48,170 bases of DNA from Rhodothermales bacterium. GTDB lineage: Bacteria; Bacteroidota; Rhodothermia; Rhodothermales; JAHQVL01. The stretch lies in the NCBI GenBank assembly GCA_034439735.1, contig JAWXAX010000018.1, forward strand, positions 1 to 48,170, written 5' to 3'. Each line of letters begins with the position of its first letter. Position 1 is the stretch's first letter. Below are positions 3 to 22,298 of this stretch, in pieces. The translations under genes were made by a program, and so were the position numbers. The notes under the pieces are model-generated. The model searched no databases. It was not told where the DNA came from and saw only the letters and a list, made by a program, of their open reading frames with translations.

Positions 3-2078
3 ATGTCTTCATCCTCAGCCGACACCGACCCCATCGTGCCGTACGTGCCGGCGTCGCAGTCGTTGCCCGAGATCACGATCAAGGCCGTTGTACTCGGATT
101 TTTGCTTTCGGCTATTCTGGCGGGGGCCAACGCGTATCTGGGGTTAAAAGTGGGGCTCACGGTGTCGGCCTCGATTCCCGCGGCCGTGATCTCGATGGCT
201 GTCTTGCGGATGTTCAAGAAGTCGAACATCCTGGAGAACAATATTGTGCAGACAGCCGCCTCGGCCGGCGAGGCGCTGGCGGCCGGCGTGATCTTCACCC
301 TGCCGGCGCTGGTGATGCTGGGATTCTGGCAGGGGTTCAACTACATCGAGACCACCGCCATCGCCATGGTGGGTGGCATTCTGGGCGTGTTGTTCACCAT
401 TCCGCTGCGACGGGCGCTGATCATCGAGGCGAGGCTGAAGTTTCCCGAAGGCGTGGCGACGGGGGAAGTGCTGAAGGCCGGCGCGGAAGGGGGCAAGGGC
501 GTGCGGTACATCGCGATGGCCGGGATCGGCGCGGCGATCTTCAAGGTGTGCCAGACCGGTTTTAAGCTGGCGGCGTCCTCGATCGACGGGGCCATCACCG
601 CCGGCCGGTCGGTATTCGGTTTCGGGAGCGATTTATCGGTGGCCCTGATGGCCGTGGGATATATCATCGGGCTCAATATCGCAACGCTCGTGTTTGCCGG
701 CGGGCTGATTTCCTGGCTCTTCGGTATCCCGATCTTTATGGCCCTGGCGTCTCCCGATACGGTACAAGGCATCGTCGGTAGTAGTGAGGGGTATGAGGCG
801 GCGCTGGCGATCTGGAGCAAGCAGGTCCGGTACCTCGGCGTCGGCGCGATGGCGACGGGTGGCATCTATGCGCTTTTTTTGCTCGTCAAGCCCATCCGCG
901 ACGGGGTGCGGTCATCCCTCGAGGCCGTTCGCGCCTCGCGTAGTGGAAACGCCGTTCAGGTGATCCGCACCGAGCGCGATGCGCCGATCCATATCGTCAT
1001 GATCGGTGCGCTGGTGCTGACCATCCCCCTGTTCATCGTCTTCACCAGCGTCGTACAGCACCAGGCATTGGACATCAGCAGCGGCCTGTTCTGGTCGACG
1101 GTTGCACTCGCCCTCGTATTCGCCTATGTCGCCGGCTTCCTGTTTTCGTCCGTCGCCGGCTACATGGCGGGCCTCGTGGGCTCCTCCAACAATCCGATCT
1201 CCGGCGTGACGATCGCCACCGTGTTATCCATCTCGCTGGTGTTATTCTGGATCCTCGGAACGGAAATCGACTTCTCGATCGACACCGCGCGGGCCACCCG
1301 GGCGGCCGCGACGGCCATCCTGGTGGGCGCGGTCGTCTGCTGCGCGGCGTCGATTGCCGGCGACAATATGCAGGACCTCAAGGCCGGCCAGCTCGTTGGC
1401 GCGACGCCGTACAAGCAGCAGATCATGCAGATGGTCGGGGTAGTGGCCGGCGCGCTCGTGATTGCCCCTGTCTTGAGCCTGCTGTTTCAGGCGTACGGTC
1501 TGGGGGATGTGTTTCCACGAGCCGGCATGGACGCCGGCGAGGCGCTCCAGGCGCCCCAGGCGACGCTGATGAGTTCGGTGGCGAACGGCGTGTTCACCCG
1601 CAACCTGCCCTGGACGATGATCGCCCTCGGGGTCCTGGTGGCCGTGGCCATCATCGGGATCGATCGGGTGCTCGAGGCGCGGGGTTCCTCGTTCCGGGCG
1701 CCGGTGCTGGCGGTGGCGGTGGGCATCTACCTGCCGCTGGAGCTGTCAACCGCCATCTTTATTGGTGGATTGGCGGCGTTCGCCGTGTCGCGTTTTTTCG
1801 AGGGCCGCAGGGCCGAACTGGGCGACAGGTATGACGGTGAAGTTGAAAAAGCCGCGCAGCGCGGTTTGCTGTTCGCCTCCGGCCTCATCACCGGCGAGGC
1901 GCTGGTCGGCATCCTCCTCGCCATCCCCTTTGCGATCGCCGAGAGCACGGACGTGTTGCGCATCCCCCTCGGCTTGAGCGAGGGAGCGTACGACGTCCTC
2001 ACCCACACTCTGGGCCTCGGGGCGTTTGTGGCGTTTGTGTTCTGGCTGTACCGGGTGGCGATTCATCGCGAGCCATAA
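3..2078 (+). CDS. OPT family oligopeptide/metal-chelate transporter
   Basis: This 691-residue polytopic membrane protein belongs to the OPT (oligopeptide transporter) family, whose members import small peptides or metal chelates by proton coupling. The N-terminal block around residues 22-70 (LPEITIKAVVLG, then NAYLGLKVGLTVSASIPAAV) is the characteristic bacterial OPT signature. About 14-16 hydrophobic segments follow to a short basic C-terminus, and the length is normal for bacterial members. The ATG lies two bases inside the window, so a start further upstream cannot be excluded. The stop codon is followed immediately by a hydrolase remnant rather than by a normal intergenic gap. The family call is secure; the substrate cannot be read from the sequence. 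Confidence 0.93.
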   Translation: MSSSSADTDPIVPYVPASQSLPEITIKAVVLGFLLSAILAGANAYLGLKVGLTVSASIPAAVISMAVLRMFKKSNILENNIVQTAASAGEALAAGVIFTLPALVMLGFWQGFNYIETTAIAMVGGILGVLFTIPLRRALIIEARLKFPEGVATGEVLKAGAEGGKGVRYIAMAGIGAAIFKVCQTGFKLAASSIDGAITAGRSVFGFGSDLSVALMAVGYIIGLNIATLVFAGGLISWLFGIPIFMALASPDTVQGIVGSSEGYEAALAIWSKQVRYLGVGAMATGGIYALFLLVKPIRDGVRSSLEAVRASRSGNAVQVIRTERDAPIHIVMIGALVLTIPLFIVFTSVVQHQALDISSGLFWSTVALALVFAYVAGFLFSSVAGYMAGLVGSSNNPISGVTIATVLSISLVLFWILGTEIDFSIDTARATRAAATAILVGAVVCCAASIAGDNMQDLKAGQLVGATPYKQQIMQMVGVVAGALVIAPVLSLLFQAYGLGDVFPRAGMDAGEALQAPQATLMSSVANGVFTRNLPWTMIALGVLVAVAIIGIDRVLEARGSSFRAPVLAVAVGIYLPLELSTAIFIGGLAAFAVSRFFEGRRAELGDRYDGEVEKAAQRGLLFASGLITGEALVGILLAIPFAIAESTDVLRIPLGLSEGAYDVLTHTLGLGAFVAFVFWLYRVAIHREP

Positions 2079-8135: not shown

Positions 8136-8169
8136 ACGTCATCCCCCGGTCAAAGCCGGGGGATGACGT
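8136..8169. repeat. REP-like palindrome, copy 1
   Basis: A perfect 14-bp inverted repeat (8136-8149 / 8156-8169) has the core CCCCCGG and a 6-nt centre. A second copy, inverted relative to this one and nearly identical in its core, lies at 18213-18239. It stands between the bidirectional terminator and the 3' end of the PorV-family gene. Confidence 0.8.
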
Positions 8170-18042: not shown

Positions 18043-18145
18043 GGGAAAAAACGGATGAGGGTTAATTGGAAAGGTCCGCAAAGTAGGGATTTCCAGCCTC
18101 ATCGCCCCGCGACGGGCTTGATTAGCGAGTAGCGATTCGTGATTA

Positions 18146-18297
18146 ATGCGAATCAGGAGTTGAACTATGTCAAACCCCCCATTCTTCGTCTTCCCCAATC
18201 GAGTTGGGAGCCTGCCCCCGGCTTTGACCGGGGGACGACGACCCTGGAGCGTGGGGCGGAAGCCAGTATGCGCCGTGTTTCAACTCCTGATTCGCAT
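18146..18297. repeat. MITE/REP-like element: 19-bp inverted repeats around a palindrome
   Basis: A perfect 19-bp inverted pair (18146-18164 / 18279-18297, core CGAATCAGGAGTTGAA) encloses about 115 bp. The flanks show weaker continued symmetry (AGCGATTCGTGATTA against the complement of GATTCGCGAATAGCGAT). Inside lies the second copy of the REP-like palindrome (18213-18239: CCCCCGGCTTTGACCGGGGG), the first being at 8136-8169. No transposase frame fits within it, so it would be non-autonomous. Confidence 0.6.
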
Positions 18298-18403
18298 GAT
18301 TCGCGAATAGCGATGAGGTGTTTTAACGGCGCAGGGCGTTCTTGCACGACGGTTCGCGAGGCGCGGCATGACATGAACCCCGGACTCGCACAAAACAAAA
18401 AGA

Positions 18404-18569
18404 GGGAACGCGCCCGACCCACATCGGCGCGTTCCCTCAAGGGGGGATTCAGGGGGGTATTCCCGGGGAGAAGACCTCGCCCGACCCACTAAGGCGAGGC
18501 CCCCTCCCTGATGGGAAAAGGGCTCCAAGCATAAGGAGAAGGGACCGCACCCGACCCACTAAGGTACGG
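18404..18569 (-). ncRNA. Candidate small RNA: three hairpins with a conserved 11-nt loop
   Basis: Three stem-loops at 18404-18436, 18475-18499 and 18545-18569 have different stem sequences but nearly the same loop. On the plus strand the loop is CGACCCACATC in the first and CGACCCACTAA in the other two. The stems are an 11-bp perfect stem with core AACGCGCC, then CCTCGCC/GGCGAGG, then CCGCACC/GGTACGG with one mismatch, so they covary. On the minus strand the last hairpin met (18436-18404) is followed by TCTTTTTGTTTTG, giving an intrinsic-terminator end. This favours minus-strand transcription of an RNA of about 200 nt that displays repeated GUGGGUCG loops. No promoter was identified. Confidence 0.5.
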
Positions 18570-18700
18570 CCCCCTCTCCCGACCAGGGATAAACTCCATC
18601 CCCAGTTCCTGGAATACAGCCGATACATCAGCTGAAGAGTCGATGGGTAGATGCGCCGAATCCGGCTGTAGCGCGAATAGCCGGCGATGTACCCGAGCGT

Positions 18701-18731
18701 AAAAACAAGGCGGCCCGAGAGCCTTTTTTTT
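18701..18731. terminator. Short intrinsic terminator after the OmpA-domain gene
   Basis: AAGGC (18707-18711) pairs with GCCTT (18721-18725) around a 9-nt loop, with a T8 run on the plus strand and GTTTTT on the minus strand. It lies 240 nt beyond the stop of the minus-strand OmpA-domain gene and probably ends that operon. Confidence 0.55.
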
Positions 18732-18974
18732 GTCTGTTAGCGCTGATTACGAAGTCCATGCCAATTGGCCCGGGCCGTAAGGCATGCGCAGTATAGCGCC
18801 GGCCAATTCGCACTGACAAGGGGGAAAAAACCCAATCAAGGCCCATTATCCGCTTTTTATTCCCGCCTGGTATTCATACCTGCTCCATACTTCACTCCAT
18901 GCTGCGCACACGCTGTATGATAATGCCACACAAGATGCTACGGTCCTCCAGTAATGCCGCAACTGCGGTTCGGC

Positions 18975-20720
18975 TCAGCCGGCATCGATCACGCTAAACG
19001 TCACGCTCCGATCCAGAAACGGCTCCCCAGGCCGACCAACCGTCACCCCGGCGCCCGATTCGACGCGTAGCACCTCAGCCGGAACCCCGCGGCTGATAAG
19101 CGCGTCGCGCACTATCGCGGCGCGAGCGTCGCGCAGCCGGCGGTTGACGGCCGGGTCGCCCTCGCGACTGGCATGGCCGGTTACGACCGCCGTGCGCGCT
19201 GTGCCGGCGAGCCGGCTTCCCTCCGTCAGCTCGATGATCAAGCCGGCGACATCCATGAGGGCGGCCTCCTGCCCCTCACGCATGGCGGCGCTCCCGCTCT
19301 GGAAAAACAGGATCGACTGTCCGATGCGCTCGATGAGCTCCTCGATGGGTACACCGCTGATCGGCCGCAGGGACGTATCGATGTATCCGCCTACGCCGGG
19401 TGCGGCCAGCGCGCGCTCCCGAGCGCGCCGCATCCAGTCGGCCGACGCCGTACCTGTAGCTACGAGCGTATCGCCGGAGAAATGAAGCTCGACGGTTGGT
19501 GGGACCTCCCAATGGGCCTCGATGCGCCGGAGCAGTACGGTCGTTTCGAGGGCGAGGTACGGCTGCCACAGGAAGGTGATGCGGTCGGCATCAGGTCCCT
19601 CTGCCGGTGGGACTAGGGCGAAGGGATCGCGTAAACCTCGCACATACCAATCACCGTCGCCACGCCCGGCGTCTACTACGATGATCCCCGGTTCGCCCCG
19701 CAGACGGTCCACGTACCCCTGAAACCGCTGGTACTCCATGGCGACCATCGCCAGCCAGATGGCGCTGCCCAGGAAAAACACGCCGAGGCCGAGCCAGACC
19801 CAGCGTCCGCTCGAGGCTACAGGCCGCGTCTCCATGTGCAGGCCGGCGTTCAGCAGGGGCCGCAGGTGCTCAAAGGCGGCCATGTCCCCGGAAAAGTCCT
19901 GGAACTCCTGGCCATGCTGCAGATGGATGACCTCGATCAGGTCCCGCAGCCGTTCGCTCAGTTCGCGTGTCAGGACGCCCCGCACGACGGCCGCGAGGAC
20001 GGCCCGGGGGCCGGGCTCGATGAGCAACGTGAGGTCACCGATCTCCACCCGGTTCAGATTCTGCTCCCGCGTCGCCCCGAAGGACTCGCGCATGAAATCC
20101 TGCACGGCGCTCATCATCCCCGAAATCACATCCGGATCCAGTTCGGCTGCACGCTCGGAGGTGACGTGTTGGATGGGTAGCCCGCTGCTTCGCTCGATCA
20201 GAAAGAGGTGCTCTACCCGATAGGCGAGCGTGTGGCTGATGACGACTTCGGAGAACGGCCGGCCCGTGCGCGCCGCTTCCAGCCGCCACTGCAGGCTTCG
20301 CACCGAGAGGCTATGCTCCAGCGTGCGATTGATCGTCTCCACCATTCCCCGCAGCGCCTCCGCGATGCTGCGCCGGATAGCGGGGCCGATGATCGGGAAA
20401 AGGGCGTCGACGAACGGTTTGGGGTTTCGGCGGATCGAGTAATGAATCGTTTTTTCGATCGTCGGCCCGAGCGCATTAGCGAGCAGGCGGGAATCCTCGC
20501 CGTGGAGCGCGATGGCCTCGGGCAACGTCCGGCTCATGGCGGGGATTTGCCCCTCCTCTTCCATGGCCGCTACCCGATCGACGCGGCGCTCGAGGCGGTC
20601 GACCTGTTCGGCTTCTTCGCCAATCAGAAGCCGGCGCAACTCCTGCATCTCGGCCGCGTGGGCCGGCGCGTCGTCGCTCGCGCGTCGCCCGGGGGGCGAC
20701 GGCGGTGAGGGCTCGTTCAT
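18975..20720 (-). CDS. Inner-membrane-anchored OmpA-domain protein with large cytoplasmic N-domain
   Basis: The protein has 581 residues with no signal peptide. A Pro-rich start leads to a helical stretch (27-60) containing LRRLLIGEEAEQ. A predicted cytoplasmic helical domain covers about 60-300, and one transmembrane helix 306-328 (WVWLGLGVFFLGSAIWLAMV). The periplasmic part has a BON-like alpha/beta segment (about 340-455) and a C-terminal OmpA-like domain (about 470-577). In that domain the peptidoglycan-binding motif reads TGHASREGDPAVN...DARA, so the usual GHTD aspartate is Ser518 while Arg533 is kept. The topology is MotB-like: cytoplasmic domain, single span, wall-facing OmpA fold. It follows the coiled-coil gene by 24 bp, near a divergent Ras-like GTPase. 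I infer a trans-envelope adaptor for that GTPase. Confidence 0.85.
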   Translation of the reverse strand: MNEPSPPSPPGRRASDDAPAHAAEMQELRRLLIGEEAEQVDRLERRVDRVAAMEEEGQIPAMSRTLPEAIALHGEDSRLLANALGPTIEKTIHYSIRRNPKPFVDALFPIIGPAIRRSIAEALRGMVETINRTLEHSLSVRSLQWRLEAARTGRPFSEVVISHTLAYRVEHLFLIERSSGLPIQHVTSERAAELDPDVISGMMSAVQDFMRESFGATREQNLNRVEIGDLTLLIEPGPRAVLAAVVRGVLTRELSERLRDLIEVIHLQHGQEFQDFSGDMAAFEHLRPLLNAGLHMETRPVASSGRWVWLGLGVFFLGSAIWLAMVAMEYQRFQGYVDRLRGEPGIIVVDAGRGDGDWYVRGLRDPFALVPPAEGPDADRITFLWQPYLALETTVLLRRIEAHWEVPPTVELHFSGDTLVATGTASADWMRRARERALAAPGVGGYIDTSLRPISGVPIEELIERIGQSILFFQSGSAAMREGQEAALMDVAGLIIELTEGSRLAGTARTAVVTGHASREGDPAVNRRLRDARAAIVRDALISRGVPAEVLRVESGAGVTVGRPGEPFLDRSVTFSVIDAG

Positions 20721-20744
20721 AGGATCGATGGGATAAGACCCGAA

Positions 20745-21317
20745 TCAGGCGCCGGCGCCGTTTAATTGGTCGGCCAGCTGGTTCATGAACGTGGCGAGTT
20801 GCCGGCGGTCGATTTTATCCGAATCGAGGCGCGTGTGGGAGGTCTGCAACTGCAGGGATAGGGCTTCGACCTGGGTGTGTAAAGCGGCCGTCAACGCATC
20901 CGCGCGGGCGGCGAGCGTGGTGCGGTAGTCCTGCTCCAAGGCCTGGAGGCGCTCGGTAAACGCCTTTTCGGCCGCATCCATGCGTTCGCCGAGGCTGGCG
21001 ATATCCGCCTGGCGGTCGGCATCGTGGCCGGCGTTTGTCTGGCGATCGTTCGCGAGATGCTCCTCTATACGCGCCATCATGGCGTTCAGCACCTGATCTA
21101 CGGAACCGAACCGGTCTGCCATTTCTTCGCGGAGCGCGCCGACCTGGCCGGCGAAAGACGCCTCCATCTGCCGCAGCCGCGCCTCGTAGGCACGGATCTG
21201 CTCGCCAAAAAGGATGCTGCGGACTTTATCGAGTTCGCCCCCCATCCCATCCTCGGAAACCCGGAGTGCGACGGCGGGGAGCTGTTCCTGTTCGCCTGCT
21301 TTCGATTTTATTGCCAT
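20745..21317 (-). CDS. Soluble coiled-coil protein of the GTPase island
   Basis: The protein has 190 residues, with no membrane span, rich in Ala, Gln, Glu and Arg. It is predicted to be almost entirely helical with heptad character from about residue 40 to 180. Residues 29-49 contain LDKVRSILFGEQIRAYEARL, which resembles the start of the OmpA-domain protein encoded 24 bp downstream (LRRLLIGEEAEQ, then RLERR). That shared L-x-GE helix is the best clue that both bind the same partner. The gene is first in a minus-strand pair and divergent from the Ras-like GTPase. I do not recognise a named family; a scaffold role is inference. Confidence 0.78.
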   Translation of the reverse strand: MAIKSKAGEQEQLPAVALRVSEDGMGGELDKVRSILFGEQIRAYEARLRQMEASFAGQVGALREEMADRFGSVDQVLNAMMARIEEHLANDRQTNAGHDADRQADIASLGERMDAAEKAFTERLQALEQDYRTTLAARADALTAALHTQVEALSLQLQTSHTRLDSDKIDRRQLATFMNQLADQLNGAGA

Positions 21318-21764
21318 GGAAATAGGTGACGGGTGGATAGGTGATCAGTAGATAGTTCTGAGGCGATGCCTGAAAGGAGGCGGAATGAGTCGATGTGGAT
21401 CGATGCCGGCAAATAATAACGCATCGTCACGGATGCGTGCCAGTATTTTGGACGCCGCGATGCGAATTCGCACCTCTAATACTTCGGACCGTTTACCAAG
21501 GACAGTGCTACAACGAACGAATCAGGCCTTCCTCGAATCGAGGAGGGGCCTGATCCACAGGAATGGCTCGGAATAGCAAAAACTGTCCACAGTATTAACC
21601 TCGTCCAACCGATCCTCCTCCAATTGACTTCATTCGTTACGCCGGAGCCGCTCTGCGTGGTGGATTTCTGGAACGAATTGTTCCTGTTTGTGTCGCAGAA
21701 TGCTACACCTCACCTGGGGGCCCTTGCCTTCAGGGCCCCATCCACCCGAATTCACACAGGTCCT
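21318..21764. other. Divergent regulatory region of the GTPase island
   Basis: The region between the coiled-coil gene and the GTPase start is about 445 bp. It holds a strong hairpin (21521-21554: ATCAGGCC/GGCCTGAT with an inner CCTC/GAGG). The upstream part of the open GTPase frame (21624-21764) shows no family similarity. On the plus strand TATTTTG near 21451 is one base short of the TAnnTTTG element; no confident promoter was found. Confidence 0.5.
21521..21554. promoter_or_regulatory. Palindromic hairpin in the divergent region
   Basis: ATCAGGCC (21521-21528) is complementary to GGCCTGAT (21547-21554), and CCTC/GAGG pair inside, giving a hairpin or dyad operator. There is no T tract, so it is not a terminator. 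It lies about 210 bp from both flanking starts. Confidence 0.4.
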
Positions 21765-22298
21765 GTGAATCCAGCAGAACCGCCGGCCGCTGAACCGAGC
21801 CGGAAGATCAAACGCAAAGTGTGCATGCTCGGCACGTTCGCCGTCGGAAAAACGAGCCTCATCCGCCGCTACGTCCGAGGCGTGTTCGACGAGAAGTACT
21901 TGACGACGATGGGCGCGAAGGTCGACAAAAAAAACGTACGGGTAGCGGATGTTGGGGTCGATCTTTTGTTGTGGGATTTGAACGGAGAAGACCGATTCCA
22001 GGCGCTTTCGATGGAATACGCGCGTGGCGCCGCCGGCTACCTGCTGGTGATCGACCGGACGCGTCCGGCCACCCTCGAGGCGGCCCACGCGTTGCAGCAA
22101 AAGGTCCTGCATGCCGTGGGTCCCCTGCCGTTTATCGTCCTGGTCAACAAGTCCGACCTGCCCGGTCACTGGGATCGGCAGCCGGGCGACCTCGACGCGC
22201 TGCGTGCCGGCGGGTGGGTGTTCGTCGAAACCAGCGCAAGAACGGGCACAGGTGTTGACGAAGCTTTTATGAGTCTCGCGAGCCGGCTGATCGATTGA
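21765..22298 (+). CDS. Ras-like small GTPase (Rup-type prokaryotic family)
   Basis: From GTG 21765 the protein is 177 residues, the size of one G domain. The frame is open back to TTG 21624, but that part has no family character. The motifs are complete: P-loop GTFAVGKT (23-30), switch I near YLTTMG, G3 WDLNGED (70-76), G4 NKSD (128-131), G5 ETSAR (155-159). At the position of Ras Gln61 there is Glu75, which should affect hydrolysis. The G3 motif is not the MglA type, and no Roc/COR or other domain is attached. Prokaryotic Ras-like proteins of this class (called Rup in the literature) have no settled function. The neighbours (wall-anchored OmpA-domain protein, coiled coil, kinase, sigma-54 activator) suggest an envelope signalling switch. 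Confidence 0.88.
   Translation: MNPAEPPAAEPSRKIKRKVCMLGTFAVGKTSLIRRYVRGVFDEKYLTTMGAKVDKKNVRVADVGVDLLLWDLNGEDRFQALSMEYARGAAGYLLVIDRTRPATLEAAHALQQKVLHAVGPLPFIVLVNKSDLPGHWDRQPGDLDALRAGGWVFVETSARTGTGVDEAFMSLASRLID

Follow-up and report, generated by a model that had tools for sequence, protein, structure and literature searches.

In the cuckoo RNAs of alphaproteobacteria, the loop of each hairpin carries an identical C-rich anti-Shine-Dalgarno (anti-SD) motif. CcsR1-4 are homologous small RNA (sRNA) hairpins that lie in tandem behind a protein gene and are co-transcribed and processed (PMC10253847, PMC8307010), and CsrB and CsrC likewise consist of several hairpins that present one short motif in their loops (PMC3856055). 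Here, we describe an array of this general kind on the minus strand of a 48,170-nt stretch of DNA from a Rhodothermales bacterium (contig JAWXAX010000018.1, positions 1 to 48,170, assembly GCA_034439735.1; GTDB lineage Bacteria; Bacteroidota; Rhodothermia; Rhodothermales; JAHQVL01), to which we refer as the window in the following. Judged from its sequence, the array is most likely a structured noncoding RNA, restricted to one family and apparently undescribed, that would present a docking sequence in multiple copies. We put the probability that it acts in trans as a multivalent loop-displaying RNA, whether by pairing or by titrating, at roughly 0.6.

Relation to described RNAs

In architecture, the array is closest to CsrB or to the tandem CcsR/cuckoo RNAs, and it is a member of neither, since the loop motif, the partner protein and the neighbouring gene all differ. 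With CsrB, CsrC and RsmZ (PMC3856055) it has in common the multi-hairpin layout, a short motif exposed in loops and a variable number of motifs; yet all nine loops that we found in three genomes have NNNGUGGGUCG and none has GGA, the motif is GUGGGUCGG, and these genomes lack a detectable CsrA. With the CcsR/cuckoo RNAs (PMC10253847, PMC8307010) it shares the tandem homologous hairpins behind a protein gene, but the loop displays GUGGGUCG instead of a C-rich anti-SD motif, and the upstream gene encodes an OmpA-like protein, not DUF1127.

Other parallels are looser. The alphaproteobacterial sRNA EcpR1 (PMC4414408) contains a motif that serves as a seed for messenger RNA (mRNA) pairing, but in a single copy, and is unrelated in sequence and lineage. 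The type III toxin-antitoxin RNAs (ToxI, CptI; PMC4627078) are built of tandem partner-binding repeats, with a CptI unit of 45 nt as against the long hairpins 61-70 nt apart described here; we rejected an antitoxin of this type because none of the three genomes has a ToxN/CptN-type toxin gene directly downstream. The FopS/GibS sRNAs of Bacteroides (PMC11697453), possibly of the same phylum, form a multi-copy family with a conserved seed, but they are encoded by dispersed genes of ~65-70 nt, have 5' seeds and an unrelated sequence, and their type of partner, a protein with an RNA recognition motif (RRM), was detected in only one of the three genomes.

At gathering thresholds, Rfam 15 has no family in the array (best sub-threshold hit: P37 with 24.2 bits, where 50 are required) or in the relatives' loci, and in the window it finds only a tRNA elsewhere. 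The motif GUGGGUCG was not found in the literature searched. We therefore regard the array as a new family of multi-hairpin loop-displaying sRNAs, a general kind that is already known.

A constant loop on covarying stems

The window contains three hairpins on its minus strand with near-perfect stems of 13-17 bp and 11-nt loops of the form NNN-GUGGGUCG (Table 1), which we number H3, H2 and H1 in the order of the putative RNA. A sequence-only reading of the window had called attention to three repeated 11-nt loops, closed by CC/GG pairs and about 67-70 nt apart. This description is accurate: CC/GG pairs close the loops, and a motif search places the plus-strand starts of CGACCCAC at 18415, 18482 and 18552, with spacings of 67 and 70. 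A repeat search returned the same single three-copy family (spacing 67/70) and, around the first copy, an inverted repeat of 13 bp without mismatch. The interval of 18404-18569 given in that reading locates the hairpins correctly and understates their extent, as the stems reach 18402 and 18579 on the minus strand. Its view that the stems are otherwise wholly different and still paired is right about the pairing, with compensatory (two-sided) change at six pairs among the three hairpins, and overstated about the difference, given the 85% similarity of H2 to H3 over 34 nt.

Counting the homologs described below, nine hairpins from three genera can be aligned. The nine bases of GUGGGUCGG are identical in all of them, while the first three loop bases vary; this constant segment sits in or at the 11-nt loop and includes one base of the 3' stem arm, and the loop-closing pair is a weak U-G in 6/9 hairpins. 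The stems, by contrast, are free in sequence as long as they pair. Over the nine hairpins, 83% of cells pair and two-sided change is seen at 14 of 17 stem pairs, a level reached by 0/500 shuffles; slid registers gave at most six such pairs. RNAalifold, without any structure input, returns essentially the same stem. The selection on structure proposed earlier thus finds support in covariation over nine hairpins and three genera.

The pairing is also strand-asymmetric. Full pairing exists on the minus strand only: a C-A mismatch that H3 shows on the plus strand corresponds to U-G pairing on the minus strand, the outer stems behave likewise, and the plus-strand A·C mismatches in the window hairpins become G·U on the minus strand with one exception. 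Over all fixed-register stems, the array strand has 23 G-U against 1 A-C (p = 3e-6, with sites that are not fully independent), where equal counts would be expected if the strand were irrelevant. This points to a single-stranded RNA that is transcribed in the same direction as the OmpA-like gene. Compared with dinucleotide shuffles, the region 18385-18600 folds 4.2 standard deviations lower on the minus strand and 3.2 on the plus strand. Together with the conserved position and strand beside one gene, the asymmetry lends support to the earlier suggestion of a minus-strand RNA with repeated GUGGGUCG loops.

The same observations bear on the alternative that the array is an element of the DNA, either a set of protein-binding repeats or hairpins for recombination or transposition, like repetitive extragenic palindromes and bacterial interspersed mosaic elements (REP/BIME) or attC sites. 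Its units are indeed tandem and imperfectly palindromic, and their number differs between genera. Against this stand the 23:1 asymmetry and the conservation of one side of the loop, not of a symmetric site. Moreover, neither the exact pattern nor a covariance model of the three hairpins finds a further copy in the window's own genome; with three copies at a single locus, we rejected a dispersed REP/BIME repeat. The DNA-level repeat family that the sequence-only reading had offered as its second option is accordingly very unlikely.

Homologous arrays in related genera

A covariance search of related genomes with the three hairpins as seed, as had been suggested earlier, identified homologs in both other genera available for the family. 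Run against 113 order genomes, the model gave weak matches (E 0.011 and 0.018) in the two remaining family genomes, and a protein-level search, made independently with the OmpA-like neighbour as query, showed that its orthologues adjoin both matches. In genome G001 (locus L061), five loop-bearing hairpins follow each other in tandem, 61-66 nt apart, and in genome G002 (locus L062) there is a single hairpin with the loop, as compared to three in the window. A second covariance model, built from all nine hairpins, yields nine matches with E below 1e-6, all within the three family genomes; neither the remaining order genomes (112) nor 396 phylum genomes gave a comparable match.

The OmpA-like gene precedes the array by 340-430 nt in 3/3 family genomes, and both are read from one strand. 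The neighbour beyond the array varies: it is galE in the window, a gene on the opposite strand for a protein without Pfam match in G001, and a MarR-acetyltransferase (GNAT) gene, also on the opposite strand, in G002. Since the downstream gene differs in each genome, the array evidently stays with its upstream neighbour. No array follows the OmpA-like orthologues of other families in those cases where the contig extends far enough to tell.

Four of the G001 units retain a common outer stem and thereby form a tandem repeat of period 64. The array thus seems to evolve through local duplications, after which compensatory changes arise. The G001 array region folds 5.6 standard deviations below shuffles.

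These homologs also settle whether the hairpins could be due to chance or to a coding repeat. While CGACCCAC by itself is not rare in the window, its copies here are clustered, covary in their stems and have counterparts at the orthologous position of two further genera, which rules out chance. The spacings (70 and 67 in the window; 64, 64, 66 and 61 in G001) are mostly not multiples of three and keep no common reading frame. We consider this explanation refuted.

Extent of the putative transcript

The putative RNA probably ends at the U tract behind H1 in the window. The T-rich tract that had been noted after the last minus-strand hairpin is present: it reads TTTTTGTTTTG at 18401-18391, and with its GC-rich 13-bp stem followed by the U tract UUUUUGUUUUG, H1 has the make-up of an intrinsic terminator. 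Our terminator scan was limited to loops of at most 8 nt, so that H1 and its U tract lie beyond its reach. In G001, a separate terminator-like hairpin is found shortly 3' of the array, and the last array hairpin has no U tract.

Table 1. Predicted features of the array and its upstream flank in the window
Feature	Coordinates	Strand	Description	Basis
OmpA-like protein gene	18975..20720	-	581 aa; conserved upstream neighbour, outside the RNA	Pfam OmpA, below cut-off
Promoter-like site	18790..18819	-	TTGTCA-18-TATACT, upstream of the array; weak, sigma-70-like, about one expected by chance	
Leader hairpin P0 (tentative)	18583..18605	-	CUGGGGAU-GGAGUUU-AUCCCUGG	Sequence; G002 fold
Hairpin H3, first in the RNA	18535..18579	-	17/17 pairs, stem GGAGAGGGGGCCGUACC / GGUGCGGUCCCUUCUCC, loop UUAGUGGGUCG	Covariance-model match, 51-64 bits
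Hairpin H2	18465..18509	-	16/17 pairs, loop UUAGUGGGUCG	Covariance-model match
Hairpin H1, last	18402..18438	-	Perfect 13-bp stem, loop GAUGUGGGUCG	Covariance-model match, 18398-18442
U-rich tract	18391..18401	-	UUUUUGUUUUG, directly 3' of H1	Sequence reading

Between the OmpA-like gene and the array, a possibly bidirectional terminator-like structure, flanked on either side by A/T tracts (AAAAACAAGGC...GCCTTTTTTTTG, plus strand), spans 18694-18728, and G001 likewise has a terminator-like structure at this place. Read as terminators, these structures would favour a separate transcript. Hairpins resembling P0 precede the arrays of the relatives as well (UUGGGAU-ACGGAA-AUCUCAA and UUGGGGUA-GAGA-UAUCCCAA; stem type UUGGGAU..AUCCCAA); the alignment of the leader sequences across the three genomes shows marginal similarity only.

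Instead of acting in trans, the array could be a cis-acting 3' element of the OmpA-like operon, involved in termination or in the protection or processing of the mRNA 3' end, with a loop kept for a nuclease or a Rho-blocking factor. The strand and the fixed place that it keeps behind the OmpA-like gene in each of the three genomes fit such a role, as does the quality of H1 as a terminator. However, the conserved part is the loop, although termination requires no loop sequence, and in the window and in G001 another terminator-like structure already separates gene and array. The absence of a U tract from the last G001 hairpin and the array-less orthologues of other families argue in the same direction. 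All in all, we find a cis-acting element unlikely.

Proposed function of the displayed loop

Under the trans-acting reading, which we favour, the locus would give rise to a minus-strand RNA, either as an independent sRNA or as a 3' tail that is processed from the OmpA-like operon; we infer its production from the sequence. It would comprise one, three or five locally duplicated hairpins, of which the last one in the window may double as terminator. The stem would act as a scaffold, free in sequence while paired, and the constant GUGGGUCGG would be the part on display, presumably as a docking sequence for a trans-acting partner. Extra copies of the loop could then raise avidity or capacity.

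The partner may be an RNA or a protein. Base pairing of the loop with an RNA that contains CCGACCCAC is possible, if short of an even chance. Alternatively, the loops might soak up an RNA-binding protein other than CsrA in the manner of CsrB, a version of the trans-acting reading that we hold only tentatively. An identical single-stranded motif repeated on rigid stems in variable copy number does correspond to the architecture of CsrB/CsrC (PMC3856055), but no known candidate protein is common to the three genomes, and the invariance of nine bases exceeds the GGA core that is typical of such sites. We lean slightly toward base pairing, with titration nearly as likely, because nine bases remain unsubstituted in nine copies, because the constraint runs into the stem and because of the weak U-G closure in 6/9 hairpins. 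Of the earlier notion of a protein-sequestering or antisense RNA, the display of repeated loops is supported, and the two specific functions are candidates only.

Several results weigh against a trans-acting role, in addition to the cis-acting alternative discussed above. In a coarse scan, CCGACCCAC is no more frequent within 25 nt upstream of ATG than a reversed control, in answer to the sequence-only reading, which had suggested a search for complementary sites near start codons; as the control is not CpG-matched, an apparent depletion is not interpreted. In the neighbourhood of the array, there is no common site that could pair with the loop in all three genomes. On the protein side, CsrA (PF02599) was detected in 0/3 family genomes, with control genomes positive, and an RRM protein (RRM_1) in only 1/3, so that neither can be a common partner. 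The promoter candidate matches at the level of a consensus only, and the G002 region alone folds no better than shuffles (z -0.5). Finally, the sample consists of three genomes, within which tandem copies are not independent of each other.

A further-reaching proposal, which we consider doubtful, is that the array stands for a previously unrecognized class of multivalent loop-displaying RNA in a lineage that lacks CsrA. Its GUGGGUCGG loops would then titrate or deliver an RNA-binding protein or pair with dedicated transcripts, perhaps in connection with the envelope system of the OmpA-like protein and a Ras-like GTPase. The conserved loop, the covarying stems, the strand asymmetry and the synteny jointly define an apparently undescribed RNA family. 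As the genomes lack CsrA, and two of the three also lack a detected RRM protein, the usual candidate partners are missing; the partner of the loop, once found, would be a new RNA-binding regulator or make the array a new seed-type sRNA. The copy numbers of one, three and five that occur in nature lend themselves to dose testing.

Candidates beyond the family

DNA homology of the 221-bp region to 40 relatives is at noise level, and a plasmid search gave no match. A search for the tandem-loop pattern in 84,980 GTDB species returned 73 matches; those inspected were mostly short tandem repeats from genomes of high GC content and tRNA-like sequences, without variable stems around a constant loop. 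Two matches in viral contigs are both unrelated. A Nonlabens array (L090 5680-6090) is a different repeat, consisting of ~58-nt GC-rich palindromic units with constant stems in a region of 39% GC, some with GTGGGTCGG. Repeated units in Amycolatopsis (L134 688-945) form a conserved GAGGGCCTCC...GGAGGCCCT hairpin around GTGGGTCGG; their constant stem marks them as REP-like and not related.

Within the order, the weak covariance matches L019, L020, L023-L032 and L139-L149 are ordinary GC-rich hairpins, several of them terminator-like, or coding sequence (ftsW in L023). The best of them, in genome G036 (L139), has an E of 0.01 per genome, which equals the chance expectation for ~112 genomes. It is an intergenic 13-bp hairpin (1501-1544, minus strand) with the loop CCGGGGGUCG, followed by a U-rich stretch; the loop resembles the family loop GGGUCGGGCG at chance level, and the hairpin could be a distant relative.

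Neighbouring genes and repeats

The conserved upstream neighbour is a predicted cell-envelope protein. Its G001 orthologue matches Pfam OmpA above the cut-off. At 18975-22298, its gene forms a set, also present in G001, with genes for a coiled-coil protein and a divergent Ras-like GTPase, and OmpA-like orthologues are present in many families of the order. The window also encodes TonB receptors with carboxypeptidase-regulatory domains.

On the other side of the array, the galE leader (18132-18311) contains an inverted repeat of 33 nt that resembles a miniature inverted-repeat transposable element, with arms that are 88% complementary and 114 nt apart. Between these arms, a 26-nt stretch recurs at 8137-8162 of the window and a 34-nt stretch in another contig (L164 1677-1710), and hence the galE-leader repeat carries a dispersed repeat.
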